Positions 5,029-51,577 of a stretch of DNA of 64,000 nucleotides are shown here, one piece after another. The notes under the pieces are model-generated. The model was not told where the DNA came from, did not search any database, and worked only from the letters and a program-made list of their open reading frames with translations. The stretch comes from Thiogranum sp. GTDB lineage: Bacteria; Pseudomonadota; Gammaproteobacteria; DSM-19610. The stretch lies in the NCBI GenBank assembly GCA_030148805.1, contig JASBSS010000018.1, positions 124,001-188,000 on the forward strand. The letters run 5' to 3'. Every line of letters starts with the position of its first letter. Positions within the stretch are counted from its first letter, which is position 1. The position numbers were made by a program, and so were the translations under genes.

Positions 5029-5199
5029 ACATCGACGGCGCCAAACGCCGCCGGTCCGACGATCGCGGCTACGCGTCGGGCGTTTCACTTACCGGCTTGA
5101 GATGGCTTGATATTTTGCCGCACCCTTGCGGGGCGTCGGGCGGCCACCGCGTCTGTTTTTGTGCACCCCATCGCCCATTTGGTGCGTTGCGCCGTGCAG

Positions 5200-37785: not shown

Positions 37786-38343
37786 CTACTGCATGACAAA
37801 ACTGGTGAAGAACACGTTTTCCACCGCGACACTGCCGGTTTCCTGCTTCATGACCTTGCGGATCTCGGCGAGCGCCTCGGAGCGCAGCTGCTCCTTGCCC
37901 TCGCGGGTGTTCAGGACCACCGGGTCCTGGTTGCTGAACAACATCACCAGGCTGTTGCGTATCAGCGGGCGTTGCTCCTTGATCCGCTCGACCATGTCGG
38001 GGTCGCGGGTCCCCACCTCGAGGGTGATCTGCAAAAACCGGATGTCCGAATCGCCGCTGAAGTTGACCACGAATGGGGGATCCATGGGCACATAGTTGAG
38101 CGGAGCCTTGAGCTTGGCGGTCTTGTCCTTTTCCGACGCCTTGGCCGGCGCGGCTTCCTCAGCGACGCCGCCGCTGTCGCTCTCTCCGGAAAGCATGCCC
38201 GTAAGAAACAAGGTGGCTGTGGCGGAAATGCCCAGAAACACGATCGCCACGCCAATGATGATCAAGAGCTTGGATTTGGATTTACCTTCGGAGACCGCGG
38301 TCTCGGCGTCGCTATCCAGGTCCAAATTATCTTCCAGTGCCAT
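37786..38343 (-). CDS. fliL: Flagellar basal body-associated protein FliL
   Basis: FliL surrounds the stators and supports torque. The product has 185 residues from ATG 38343 (MALEDNLDLDSDAETAV), with AAGGGG seven bases upstream. A cytoplasmic acidic tail is followed by one membrane helix (LLIIIGVAIVFLGISATATLFL, about residues 26-47) and a periplasmic domain that ends FFTSFVMQ. First gene of the long fliL-M-N-O-P-Q-R-flhB-A-F-G-fliA run, with a sigma54 promoter at 38379-38394. Confidence 0.96.
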   Translation of the reverse strand: MALEDNLDLDSDAETAVSEGKSKSKLLIIIGVAIVFLGISATATLFLTGMLSGESDSGGVAEEAAPAKASEKDKTAKLKAPLNYVPMDPPFVVNFSGDSDIRFLQITLEVGTRDPDMVERIKEQRPLIRNSLVMLFSNQDPVVLNTREGKEQLRSEALAEIRKVMKQETGSVAVENVFFTSFVMQ

Positions 38344-38378
38344 GTAAATCCCCTTCGATGCTGACTGCATGAGGGGAT

Positions 38379-38394
38379 AGCAAGACATATGCCA
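38379..38394 (-). promoter_or_regulatory. Sigma54 promoter of the fliL operon
   Basis: On the minus strand the site reads TGGCAT-ATGTC-TTGCT, with the GG and GC ten bases apart and five of six bases of the -24 box matched. The start would be near 38367, about 24 nt before fliL. An A/T-rich tract lies just upstream. Confidence 0.85.
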
Positions 38395-38523: not shown

Positions 38524-40803
38524 TCAGTGCGCGCTCAGCGACAACCATTCGCCGAAGCCCTCGTTGGGCAACGGCTTGCTGATATGGAAGCCCTGCAACA
38601 GGTCGCAACCCAGCTCCAGCAGCATTTGCCGGATCGCCTCCTGCTCCACGCCCTCGGCGACCACCTGGCATTCCAGGTTGTGGCCCAATTCGATGATCGA
38701 GCGCACCACCGCCGCGTCGCGGGGATTGATCAGCATGTCTTCCAAAAAGGAACGATCGATTTTCAAGGTATCGATGGGCAGGCGCTTGAGGTATGACAGG
38801 GAGGAATAACCCGTGCCGAAGTCGTCGATGGCGATGGAGACCCCCAGCTTACTGAGCTGATCGAGCGTCCGCGCGCCGGCCTCGAGATCGGTCATCAGGC
38901 TGCCTTCGGTGATCTCGATTTCCAGATTCTCCCCCGCGACACCGGCTTTCGTCAGGGCCTGACGGATACGCCCGACCAGGCCGGGCGACTGGAAGGAACG
39001 CGCCGACACATTCACCGAGACCGGCATCGGCCTGCCGTCGAGCGACCAGAGCTTGCTCTGCGACAAGGCCGTGTGGAGTACCCAGTCGGTAATCGGCGCG
39101 ATCATCCCCAATTGCTCCGCCACCGGGATGAAACGTTTCGGCAGGACCAGCCCCTGCTGCGGATGGCGCCAGCGCAGCAGGGCTTCGGCCCCGCGAATTT
39201 CGCCGCTGGCGATATCGATCTTGGGTTGATAGTGCAGTTCGAACTCGTCGCGCTCCAGCGCGCCGTGCAACTGGCCCGAGAACTGCAAATGCTCACTGGC
39301 CGACGACTGCTGGGCATCCGACTCATAAAACAGATAAGGCGCCGAATTCCACTTGGCCCGATACATGGCGCTGTCGGCGTGACTGGCCAGGGTGTGGGCA
39401 TCCTCGCCGTGCTGGGGATAAACGGCGATGCCGATGGCGCTACTCAGGCAGAGCTCACGCTGCTGGTAACTGAACGGTGCGCTCAGCGCGCCGATCACCT
39501 CGCTGGCCACCCGCTCCACGGCGCGCTCGGCGTCCTGCAGGAAGGGCAAAATGATGCCGAATTCGTCGCTCCCGAGCCGCGCCAGGGTGTCGGTGTCGCG
39601 CAGCAACTTCTGCAACCGCCGGGCGATCTGACGCAGCAGCTCGTCACCGGCCTGATTGCCCAGCGAGTCGTTGTACATCTTGAACTGGTTGATGTCGAGC
39701 ACCAGTACCGCCACGGCCGCGCCCGGATTGCGCCGCGCAACCGCCAGCGCCGAACCCAGGCGGTCGTACCACAGCGCCCGATTCGCCAGCCCGGTGATCT
39801 CGTCCTGCGTGGACAACTGCTCCAGGCGTTCGCGGTCACTGTGCAGGTCGGAAACATCCTCCATCAGGCAGTGGACCCGCAGCACCCGCCCGCGGCGATT
39901 GGCCATGGGGTAAAACGCCATGCGAAACCAGCGATCGTCGCGTTCGTCGCTCTCACAGGGCTGCATCAAAACCTCGAGCTGCACGCTTTCGTTGTCGATG
40001 ACCTGCTGCCAGGCGGTCAGCACCCGCTCGCGCTCGCTGCCGTGGATGCGGTAAAAACAGGGTATCGGCGCCTCCAACTCGCGCTGACAGAAAGCTCGCG
40101 CGCCCGGGCTGGCGTAGCTGATGCTGTTGTTCTCGATATCCACCGTCCACAGCAATTGGGGAATGTTGCCGAGAATTTCGCTGGCGAGCAGCTGTTCGGC
40201 ATCGAGGGTATCGCGTTGGTCGGTAAGCTGATCGACCGCGGCGCGCCAATACGCCTCCGTCATCACCGCCAGATCGCGGAAAATGAGTTTGATCAACGCG
40301 GTCTCCACCGCGTCCCGGTCCTGATCGTCGATTTGCGGATCGCTGGCCACCAGGTGTTGCAGGTGGTCGAGGAACAGCCGATAGGCCCCAAGTGTCCACA
40401 CGGGTTTCACCCCGCGTCGATAATGCGCCCGCCCGATGTATTCCGAACGCCGTGTGGCCTGTTCGTCGATCTGGCCGCCGAGCAATTCGAGTTTATGGCC
40501 AAGCATGGCGCGTACCAGCTCGCCGACATTGCCGCCGTCGCGCTCGAAGGCGTACATCACATCGGCGATATCCGGATTATCGAAGAGGTAGTTGTAACTG
40601 ATTTCGGCGAAACCGGCCGCACCCTGCACCAGGACCGCCTGGTAACGTTGCAGCAGTCGGGTATCGGCGTCGTTCAATTGCAGGACGTAATTGAACTCCT
40701 TGCCAGCAATCGGAGTCGGGGTTCTTCTTCTTGCTCCTGCTCGCCGTCGCTCCTCTTTTGGACGCCCACGCTTTTTCTGGGGTGTTGGCATCGCCACATC
40801 CAC
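38524..40803 (-). CDS. Globin-coupled sensor with PAS, GGDEF and EAL domains (c-di-GMP enzyme)
   Basis: A 759-residue soluble protein from GTG 40803; ATG 40791 is an alternative start. Residues 9-27 are very basic and contain an AT-hook-like RGRP core. Residues about 35-195 form a protoglobin-type sensor domain with the proximal heme His127 in IGRAHYRRGV. A PAS-like region covers about 200-320. The GGDEF domain has the signature GSDEF (411-415) in place of GGDEF, with an intact RxxD inhibition site (RDTD, 402-405). The EAL domain is complete: EAL 540-542, SVNVSARSF, EITE, DDFGTGYSS and EGVE. It most likely hydrolyses c-di-GMP, with the cyclase doubtful. It sits between fliK and fliL. Confidence 0.9.
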   Translation of the reverse strand: MDVAMPTPQKKRGRPKEERRRAGARRRTPTPIAGKEFNYVLQLNDADTRLLQRYQAVLVQGAAGFAEISYNYLFDNPDIADVMYAFERDGGNVGELVRAMLGHKLELLGGQIDEQATRRSEYIGRAHYRRGVKPVWTLGAYRLFLDHLQHLVASDPQIDDQDRDAVETALIKLIFRDLAVMTEAYWRAAVDQLTDQRDTLDAEQLLASEILGNIPQLLWTVDIENNSISYASPGARAFCQRELEAPIPCFYRIHGSERERVLTAWQQVIDNESVQLEVLMQPCESDERDDRWFRMAFYPMANRRGRVLRVHCLMEDVSDLHSDRERLEQLSTQDEITGLANRALWYDRLGSALAVARRNPGAAVAVLVLDINQFKMYNDSLGNQAGDELLRQIARRLQKLLRDTDTLARLGSDEFGIILPFLQDAERAVERVASEVIGALSAPFSYQQRELCLSSAIGIAVYPQHGEDAHTLASHADSAMYRAKWNSAPYLFYESDAQQSSASEHLQFSGQLHGALERDEFELHYQPKIDIASGEIRGAEALLRWRHPQQGLVLPKRFIPVAEQLGMIAPITDWVLHTALSQSKLWSLDGRPMPVSVNVSARSFQSPGLVGRIRQALTKAGVAGENLEIEITEGSLMTDLEAGARTLDQLSKLGVSIAIDDFGTGYSSLSYLKRLPIDTLKIDRSFLEDMLINPRDAAVVRSIIELGHNLECQVVAEGVEQEAIRQMLLELGCDLLQGFHISKPLPNEGFGEWLSLSAH

Positions 40804-40925
40804 TCATTGTTATAATTGTGGGTAAAAGGTAGCACAGCCAGATCCCTAAACACAATCAGTCTGTTAGGCGGGTTTTCCCCGGACGGTGCCGACCCCCGGC
40901 AAGCAACCGGTTGATTTGTCATCGT

Positions 40926-42191
40926 TTAGGCGAAGAGATCCAACCGACCGCTGCCCAGGAACGCCGCCAGCGGCGTCTGCTTGACGCTTTCGACAGGCAA
41001 TGGCTCGTCGCTATCGCCACCACCGCTCCAGTTCGCCGCGGCGCCATCCTCGGCGCGCCGCTGGCCGCTGAACGCGCCACCGGAAATATCGACGTTGATC
41101 AGCTGCACGCCGGAGGCTTCAAACATGTCGCGCAGGCGTGGCAAGCTCGCCTCTAGCGCTTCGCGCACCCCGGCATGATGGGCGTTGAACTGTATCGAGG
41201 CCTGATCGTTCTGTACCTGTACCCGCACCTCCATCGGCCCCAGATGCGCAGGGTTCAGCTTCACCTGCGCCCCCTGCAGCTTCTGACTTGCCAGCCACTG
41301 GATCCGTTCGCTCAGTGCCTGATCCCAATCAGCTTGTCCGAAAGGCGTGTTCAACGTCATGACGGGTACGGCTACCGCGGCATTCGGCTGCGATCCGGTC
41401 GCCGCGGACACCGGCGCCGTGGCGGCGACCGGGCTGCTATCGGCACTCGGCGTGCGGGATGTATCCGGACTCAAACGCCTCAGTGTCGCCATCAGCGCGG
41501 CCAACTCCGGGGCTCGTGCCTGCGCACCGTCGTTGCCGGGCGCAGGCAACTGCTGAGAGAAGAGCATGGGATCAGCCGCGACCCGCGGATCACGCGGCGG
41601 TGTGGCGCCGGAGTCCCCGGTGGGCGAGAGCGTATCGGCTCGCGGCGGCGGGGCGGCTCGGGCGGCCGCGCCAGCGGCATCGCCGCTCACGGCGCGCAGC
41701 GGCCGCCCTTCACCCGGGTTTTCCGCCACCGTCACGCCCGCCAGCGCAGTGGCGACTTCAGGCGGTAAAACAGCCTGCAATCCGGGTTGTTGCGCCACCA
41801 AGGGCTGCAAAATCAGGGCGAGTTGCTGCGCCGGCGATTGGTCGGACAACTGCGCGCCGGCTGCCATGAGTTGTTTCACGCTGGCGCCGAGGCGCTCGAC
41901 GAACCGTTTCATATCGATGCCGCTGGCGGCAACCTTTTCCAGCGTTGCTTCCAGCAAGGGCAACAATTTGCCGCCTTGCGGCAAGCTTTGCAGGTCGGCA
42001 AGCACCGCCTGTGCATCCTCCGCGACCGCGGGGGCGGGCGTCGATTGACTCGCGACCACCTGGTCCCAGACCCCGGGGAACCCCGACGGCGAGCCGCTAT
42101 CAAGCTGAATTAGTTCACTATTTTCTCCCCCACCCGAAACTGCGGCAGGGGCTGCAAAGGTGATCGGCAAACTGGTTGAGGGCGGATTCAT
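40926..42191 (-). CDS. fliK: Flagellar hook-length control protein FliK
   Basis: FliK measures hook length and triggers the FlhB switch. The 421-residue product has a low-complexity Ala/Pro/Ser-rich N-terminal and central part and a conserved C-terminal domain (GAQVKLNPAHLGPMEVRVQVQNDQASIQF, then REALEASLPRLRDMFEASGVQLINVDIS). It lies 60 bases after fliJ. The 122 bases between its stop and the next gene hold several GC-rich inverted repeats and no clear T-run terminator. Confidence 0.93.
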   Translation of the reverse strand: MNPPSTSLPITFAAPAAVSGGGENSELIQLDSGSPSGFPGVWDQVVASQSTPAPAVAEDAQAVLADLQSLPQGGKLLPLLEATLEKVAASGIDMKRFVERLGASVKQLMAAGAQLSDQSPAQQLALILQPLVAQQPGLQAVLPPEVATALAGVTVAENPGEGRPLRAVSGDAAGAAARAAPPPRADTLSPTGDSGATPPRDPRVAADPMLFSQQLPAPGNDGAQARAPELAALMATLRRLSPDTSRTPSADSSPVAATAPVSAATGSQPNAAVAVPVMTLNTPFGQADWDQALSERIQWLASQKLQGAQVKLNPAHLGPMEVRVQVQNDQASIQFNAHHAGVREALEASLPRLRDMFEASGVQLINVDISGGAFSGQRRAEDGAAANWSGGGDSDEPLPVESVKQTPLAAFLGSGRLDLFA

Positions 42192-50128: not shown

Positions 50129-51577
50129 TCAAACTCCCGTCGCGCTGTCGGAGCGCTGCAGGCCGTACTTGCGTAATTTTTCCACCAGCGTGGTGCGGCG
50201 CATCCCCAGACGCTTGGCGGCCTGGGCGACCACCCCGTTGGCGTCATCCAGGGCCTGCTTGATGAAACCGACCTCCAGATTGCTCAGGTGCTCCTTGAGA
50301 TCCAGACCGTCACGCGGCAACCGCGGCTCGGCATCGAGCTGGTACTGCATCGGCTGGGCGCTGCTCAGCAACTCTTCGCCAAAGCGCGGACCCTCGCCCG
50401 GCAGCGAATCGGACTGGAACTTGTCGGGCAGATCGCCGACGTCGACCACCCCGAAGGGGTACAGGATGGCCAGCCGTTCGATGAGGTTGGCCAGTTCACG
50501 CACATTTCCCGGCCAGTTGTATTCGCACAGCGCGAGAATGGCGCCCTGCGTCAGGCGGACGGAACCGCGCTTCTCGTGTTCGATACGACGAATCAATTCG
50601 TTGACCAACAGCGGGATATCCTCCACCCGGTCGCGCAGCGGAGGCATTTCGATAGGAAACACATTGAGCCGGTAGAACAGATCCTCGCGGAACTTCCCCA
50701 GGGTGATCGCTTCTTCGAGGTTGCGATGGGTGGCGGCGATGATACGCACATCCGCCTCGATACTCTTGTTGCTGCCTACCCGCTCGAAGGTTCGCTCCTG
50801 CAGGACACGCAGCAGCTTGACCTGCATGTTAAGGCTCATATCGCCGATTTCATCGAGAAACAAGGTGCCCTTCTCGGCCAACTCGAAACGGCCCTGGCGG
50901 GCGCTGATCGCGCCGGTGAAAGCGCCTTTTTCGTGCCCGAAGAGTTCCGACTCGAGCAAATCGCCGGGGATCGCACCGCAGTTGACCGGTACGAAGGCAT
51001 GGTCGCGGCGGTTCGAATAATAATGGAGATTGCGCGCCACGACTTCCTTGCCGGTGCCCGACTCACCGAGAATCAGCACGTTGGCCTCGGAATTGGCCAC
51101 CTGCTGGATCATTTTGCGCACCAGCTGGACTGCGCGGCTGGTGCCGACCAGACTGCGGAACAGATCGACCGGCCGCTGATGGCGGCCGTCCGAGCGGGTC
51201 TCGCGATAGACTTCCGCCTGGTGCAACGCACTGGTCAGCTGGGTGTAGTGCGCGGGCAGCTCCACCCGCCCAAGGATGCAGGACGCCGGCTCGATGGCCA
51301 CGGTAAGCTCTTTGTTTTTCTCGGAAAGCAGAAAAATCGGCAGATGTTCGTCGAGGTCGTGCACCTCTTTGAGCTGTTTTTGCAGGGCCTTGTCGTTGGT
51401 GCAGGAGCCCACCAACACCGCCAGGATTTCCTCGGCATCGTCAATGCTGGACTTCCAGTGCCCGCAGTCCGGCGTCAGGACCGGCTCGTAGTTGATGAAG
51501 CGCAAAACGGATTCCAACTCGCGGCCGCGATCAGGGTCGGCTTCGATAATAAGTACCTTAGGCTCGCTGATTGCCAC
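50129..51577 (-). CDS. fleQ: Master flagellar regulator FleQ (FlrA), sigma54 activator
   Basis: FleQ starts the flagellar cascade with RpoN. The 482-residue product begins at GTG 51577 with GGGGAG about seven bases upstream. The N-terminal receiver-like domain lacks a phospho-Asp (ILAVLVGSC at that position). LFRSLVG near residues 139-145 matches the LFRS motif linked to c-di-GMP binding in P. aeruginosa FleQ. The AAA+ domain has LGESGTGKEVVARNLHY, EKGAFTGAISARQGRF and LFLDEIGDMSLN. The C-terminal HTH is AAKRLGMRRTTLVEKLRKYGL. A sigma70 promoter with a palindrome lies upstream. Confidence 0.96.
   Translation of the reverse strand: MAISEPKVLIIEADPDRGRELESVLRFINYEPVLTPDCGHWKSSIDDAEEILAVLVGSCTNDKALQKQLKEVHDLDEHLPIFLLSEKNKELTVAIEPASCILGRVELPAHYTQLTSALHQAEVYRETRSDGRHQRPVDLFRSLVGTSRAVQLVRKMIQQVANSEANVLILGESGTGKEVVARNLHYYSNRRDHAFVPVNCGAIPGDLLESELFGHEKGAFTGAISARQGRFELAEKGTLFLDEIGDMSLNMQVKLLRVLQERTFERVGSNKSIEADVRIIAATHRNLEEAITLGKFREDLFYRLNVFPIEMPPLRDRVEDIPLLVNELIRRIEHEKRGSVRLTQGAILALCEYNWPGNVRELANLIERLAILYPFGVVDVGDLPDKFQSDSLPGEGPRFGEELLSSAQPMQYQLDAEPRLPRDGLDLKEHLSNLEVGFIKQALDDANGVVAQAAKRLGMRRTTLVEKLRKYGLQRSDSATGV

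Follow-up and report, generated by a model that had tools for sequence, protein, structure and literature searches.

What is a c-di-GMP enzyme with a globin at its N-terminus doing inside a flagellar gene cluster? The question is raised by one open reading frame (ORF) in the 64,000-nucleotide stretch of a Thiogranum sp. contig analysed here (henceforth the window), which encodes a globin-PAS-GGDEF-EAL protein (38524..40803; like all the features given below, on the minus strand). As stated in a preliminary description made from the DNA alone, the gene lies between fliK (40926..42191), upstream, and fliL (37786..38388), downstream. From sequence comparisons we consider that the product is probably (about 0.6) a soluble, haem-containing, gas-gated globin-coupled c-di-GMP phosphodiesterase whose dedicated role is flagellar control.

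Domain architecture

The ORF, whose place and strand were borne out by an ORF check, spans 759 amino acids from a GTG and likely 755 from an ATG at 40791. Pfam placed a protoglobin domain (PF11563, residues 40–188, E 4.6e-17, above the cut-off) at its N-terminus, fused to a signalling output made of GGDEF (332–485, E 1.1e-42) and EAL (511–744, E 2.8e-79) domains, together with a weak PAS_4 match (256–321, E 1.5e-4, just under the cut-off). Among 37 homologues the same domains were matched in 36 (Protoglobin), 34 (PAS_4), 37 (GGDEF) and 36 (EAL) sequences. Modelling of the N-terminal region (mean pLDDT 88) left the first 20 residues disordered and predicted, after them, the globin, then a helix some 53 residues long and finally a PAS fold (39838..40155) that resembles sensor PAS/LOV domains with Z scores of about 12–13, so that the PAS region of the preliminary description is upheld by both the weak match and the fold. 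This domain carries a PIPC motif (residues 242–245 from the ATG) common to flagellar and non-flagellar homologues; its second proline (244) is invariant in 37 sequences and the whole motif within a set of 11, and a cofactor or structural role is possible. A full-length model was confident for the individual domains, with MorA, RmcA, RbdA and DosP as the closest structures, and gave a pTM of 0.41, for which reason the arrangement of the domains in it is not reliable.

The globin (40240..40686) has the features expected of a globin-coupled sensor. His127 (His123 from the ATG; 40423..40425) is aligned with the proximal (F8) haem ligand of HemAT and AfGcHK, Tyr70 occupies the distal (B10) position, and the modelled fold matches the globins of other globin-coupled sensors (Z 19.6 for those of Thermosynechococcus and Geobacter, 18.4 for AfGcHK, 18.2 for HemAT, 16.9 for BpeGReg and 16.0 for DosC). 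The protoglobin with His127 proposed at the outset is thus supported by Pfam, alignment and fold.

Both output domains can be read in some detail. In the GGDEF domain (39349..39810; Pfam and model) no match to the canonical GG[D/E]EF A-site is found in the window protein, which has GSDEF instead (residues 411–415; 39559..39573), with an RxxD I-site (RDTD) five residues upstream, exactly the altered signature and intact inhibitory site noted before. GSDEF recurs in the three closest relatives, and most members of the genus have a plain GGDEF. As the catalytic aspartate and glutamate are retained in GSDEF, cyclase activity may persist. The EAL domain (38572..39273; Pfam and model) had been called complete, and all ten catalytic residues checked are indeed present (E540, L542, R544, N598, E633, D660, D661, K681, E717 and Q737).

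Flagellar neighbourhood and distribution

The association with fliK is constant, the latter being directly upstream in all 16 genus and family relatives whose contigs reach that far. Downstream, fliL was found in 11 relatives, two of them with extra DNA in between (positions 5158–7856 of L050 and 4361–5469 of L051). For another genome (G004) the fetched stretch contained no fliL, and fliM lay far off on the same chromosome. The junction between the gene and fliL seems to be a recurrent site of breakage or insertion, with insertions in L050 and L051 and a split cluster in G004.

The gene was present in 16/16 same-genus genomes with fliM; the only one without fliM (G007, 82% complete) also lacked the gene. 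Named records carrying it come from Thiogranum, Thiohalobacter and unclassified gammaproteobacterial MAGs. The class was sampled with 369 genomes; matches at E <= 1e-15 came from 31 of these, and about 20 of the matches are full-length relatives. Several lie in flagellar clusters and show either the fliK-X-fliL arrangement (L133, L134, L136 and L138) or a second one, fleQ-X-flhG-fliA (L132, L135, L078 and L080), where flhG (fleN) and fliA were named through their homologues in the window, a ParA/MinD-type ATPase and a sigma-70 factor. In L140 the gene is beside flhG and the contig ends there, so only that side is visible, and in L129 and L075, which belong to a separate lineage, only the fliL side can be seen. 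With the gene between fleQ and flhG/fleN in four relatives and beside flhG in a fifth, a link to FleQ/FleN is favoured.

The cluster in the window has its own candidate c-di-GMP receptor, a FleQ (50129..51577) that matches the solved Pseudomonas aeruginosa protein at E 5.5e-170. The LFRS motif previously ascribed to it was recovered by alignment with P. aeruginosa FleQ, in the sequence DLFRSLVGTS. The genome also encodes dozens of GGDEF/EAL c-di-GMP enzymes and 15 PilZ matches, which makes FleQ only one possible target; the position of a gene may point to a target and does not prove it. Two other globin-bearing proteins were seen in the same genome. One is a 355-residue globin-GGDEF protein with GGEEF (L155:1429-2496, contig C13), possibly an oxygen-regulated cyclase that opposes the globin phosphodiesterase. 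The other is a large sensor with a globin and multiple PAS domains (L157:1-2064, contig C25; frame of about 1050 aa), whose N-terminus is likewise a basic tail, some 40 residues long.

The gene may have its own promoter. Alignment of the upstream region showed a conserved block, GATTGTatTTA-N10-TGTGnTAaC, and a conserved leader, ACAAnTATAACAA, within intergenic DNA that otherwise diverges. In the window these correspond to the promoter-like block GATTGTNNTTA-N10-TGTGNTA (40830..40857), conserved 5' of the gene across the genus and present as a single copy in the genome, and to the 5' leader element ACAANTATAACAA (40807..40819). A scan of the upstream region with the sigma-70 consensus did not call the block, which looks like the gene's promoter by virtue of its conservation.

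Phylogeny and substitution pattern

A tree of 42 sequences was split by a branch with SH-aLRT support of 100 into 25 flagellar-cluster members on one side and 15 non-flagellar members plus L075 and L129 on the other; some inner placements are unsure owing to the long branches of L133, L136 and L138. All 25 members of the clade, from several families, are found in flagellar clusters in one of the two arrangements (fliK-X-fliL or fleQ-X-flhG/fleN).

The two sides differ in which sites have changed. By Fitch counts the letters of the A-site changed about 10 times in the flagellar clade vs 0 outside, including the catalytic position (GGDQF, GGDRF), and the proximal histidine 4 times vs 0, whereas the ten checked EAL residues show no change in the clade. 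Total branch lengths are nearly the same (8.78 in the clade vs 8.59 outside); were changes proportional to branch length, the probability of 10/10 falling in one half would be ~0.001 (the motif letters are not fully independent) and that of 4/4 ~0.065. We used substitutions per branch length because a sign test of A-site change against location had only 3 independent pairs. On this evidence, constraint on the cyclase and haem sites has been relaxed in the flagellar clade while the phosphodiesterase is kept, a clade-wide pattern that supports the reading of the predicted cyclase site as dispensable and the phosphodiesterase as the conserved output.

The window protein is itself an intermediate, with an altered A-site that keeps its D and E, and with its histidine in place. 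The latter is retained in the window protein and in 20/25 clade members, and the distal tyrosine throughout the clade wherever the region is readable. The replacements are to Tyr (L045 and L133), Arg (L080) or Leu (L135 and L140), and these five proteins are candidate haem-free globin sensors. Given that the ligand was lost in four lineages, the role of the clade does not depend on haem sensing, and a response to oxygen should not be extended to all its members.

The basic N-terminal tail

Translation most likely starts at the ATG of MPTP (40789..40791), four codons inside the GTG ORF. This start has a GGA 7 nt upstream, and an ATG beginning MPTP (or MPAP or MPKP) is kept in most genus members after a conserved TGGATTTGGC-type stretch. 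It leaves a tail of 31 residues (40699..40791) with a net charge of +10, predicted to be disordered (pLDDT about 42 over the first ~20). The preliminary description had allowed for a tail that vanished if translation began further downstream; the conserved ATG retains it. Moreover, pN/pS in the tail is about 0.35 (0.39 in its core) vs 0.07–0.13 in the domains, and its indels are multiples of three that keep the frame, so that the tail must be translated. Together with the conserved MPTP start and its GGA, these values led us to reject a start-site artefact.

The same description had stressed an AT-hook-like RGRP core, and this is present (40759..40770; residues 12–15 of the ORF, within KKRGRPK). 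However, among the tails compared [RK]GRP occurs only in the window protein and its three closest relatives (L039, L040 and L041); other genus members have RGRS, RGRL, STRS, SART, RRRT, RRRP, RRQP and so on. Shuffling the residues of the window tail also produced [RK]GRP in about 5% of the permutations, so chance could account for the motif, which is probably a coincidence. We therefore rejected the AT-hook as a conserved feature, and a literature search found no relevant papers on AT-hooks together with GGDEF. What did stand when homologues were compared, as had been proposed, was the basic character of the tail. Its net charge ranges from +2 to +10 in the flagellar clade vs −3 to +4 in other homologues, positive in every readable clade member (median +8 vs 0 outside), a comparison that is approximate since the start codons of distant homologues were chosen by eye. 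In the sequences aligned, the conserved properties of the tail are positive charge and length, and the genus keeps it basic and disordered.

Comparison with known systems

Globin-coupled c-di-GMP enzymes are already known, and globin-coupled cyclases and phosphodiesterases are listed in a review of c-di-GMP sensing (PMC8846402); the flagellar subfamily described here is distinct. The nearest parallel is DcpG of Paenibacillus dendritiformis, which likewise joins a globin sensor to GGDEF and EAL domains. It hydrolyses c-di-GMP with O2 bound and synthesises it with NO bound (PMC10882959), and gas-dependent turnover of c-di-GMP would be the expected function here as well. From DcpG as described, the window protein is set apart by a PAS domain between globin and GGDEF, the basic N-terminal tail, an altered A-site and a gene fixed in the flagellar cluster. 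Escherichia coli DosC, BpeGReg and PccGCS share the globin fold, proximal histidine and distal tyrosine, but they are cyclases without an EAL domain, which is the conserved output in our protein. P. aeruginosa RmcA (PA0575), RbdA (PA0861) and MorA have the GGDEF-EAL core (PAS-GGDEF-EAL in RbdA), with 31–46% identity to the solved structures. These three have no globin, and their genes are not known to lie in the flagellar cluster. E. coli DosP (PdeO) likewise couples a haem domain that senses O2 to a GGDEF-EAL phosphodiesterase (22–23% identity over the full model); its haem is in a PAS domain, whereas that of the window protein would be in the globin. Xanthomonas XC_2226 was considered as a precedent for a GGDEF-EAL protein in a flagellar cluster and rejected, as the paper gives a phenotype in pilus motility and no information on a cluster or a globin. 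A literature search of incomplete coverage found no paper that describes a globin enzyme as a fixed part of a flagellar cluster.

Proposed mechanism and alternatives

The preliminary description had envisaged an oxygen-gated phosphodiesterase tuning FleQ. A globin sensor coupled to an EAL domain and the tie to flagella, through synteny and co-occurrence, are both borne out; beyond these we infer haem binding, gas gating, the direction of the activity, FleQ as the target and the role of the tail. Binding of O2 (or NO/CO) to the haem would shift the signalling helix and the PAS domain, so that the GGDEF domain, which like that of RbdA or RmcA would serve mainly as a relay that binds GTP/c-di-GMP, would hold the EAL dimer differently and alter the rate of the phosphodiesterase. 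The enzyme would lower the c-di-GMP that acts on the flagellar system, plausibly through FleQ (with FleN) and possibly through PilZ-type brakes, and flagellar output would then track oxygen. Since relatives occupy flagellar clusters in several other families, the enzyme probably tunes swimming to oxygen. Expression would probably be from its own promoter and not solely from the fliE-K operon. Rather than acting as a sequence-specific AT-hook, the tail would probably serve localisation, by directing the enzyme to acidic lipids of the membrane, to a partner at the pole or to nucleic acids of any kind.

The strongest competitor, to which we give a minority but substantial share of probability, is a true dual enzyme like DcpG, with GGDEF and EAL domains both active and the sign of the output switched by different gases. 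Besides DcpG itself, where O2 favours hydrolysis and NO synthesis, the canonical GGDEF and RxxD sites of most genus members speak for it, as does GSDEF, which keeps the metal/catalytic D and E; an imperfect GSDEF site has been described in a Pseudomonas fluorescens enzyme, which a mutation close by probably made more active (PMC4395868). Against it is the history of the clade, in which the A-site was repeatedly changed, even to GGDQF and GGDRF, and the EAL site never. The same history bears on the haem: replacement of the proximal histidine in four lineages, and a conserved PIPC that suggests a role of its own for the PAS domain, would suit a globin fold acting as a non-haem or protein-interaction module in an enzyme that answers another signal through the PAS domain or a partner. 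We regard this as quite unlikely for the window protein, which has kept the histidine like most of its clade, along with the distal tyrosine wherever it can be read.

The flagellar tie could also be incidental, the protein setting the global c-di-GMP pool like other GGDEF-EAL enzymes, as the dozens of such enzymes in the genome and the location of nearly all homologues outside the clade away from flagellar clusters might suggest. A clade confined to such clusters, in two different places and in several families, and the joint absence of the gene and fliM make this improbable too. Least probable of all, in our judgement, is that the tail binds DNA, as an AT-hook or in another way, and so places the phosphodiesterase at flagellar promoters to lower c-di-GMP locally around FleQ: KKRGRPK does resemble an AT-hook core and the charge of the tail is positive across the readable clade, but RGRP is confined to four close sequences, the motif turns up in 5% of shuffled tails, and basic tails have many other roles. 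A broader extension of the gas-gated phosphodiesterase reading is highly speculative, namely that members of the clade are flagellum-dedicated enzymes which their basic tail holds close to FleQ/FleN, on flagellar DNA or at the flagellated pole, where they would control a local c-di-GMP pool read by FleQ; in some lineages the globin would have come to use a haem-free signal.

Implications

Motility is under the control of both oxygen and c-di-GMP. The two would, if the reading is true, be wired together directly by an oxygen-type sensor and a phosphodiesterase encoded within the flagellar cluster itself, which in one subfamily means between fleQ and fleN. The clade also offers a natural series, with the cyclase site intact, altered or lost, the haem ligand kept or lost and the EAL site always kept, which would be useful for studying the conversion of GGDEF domains into regulators and the question of local c-di-GMP pools.
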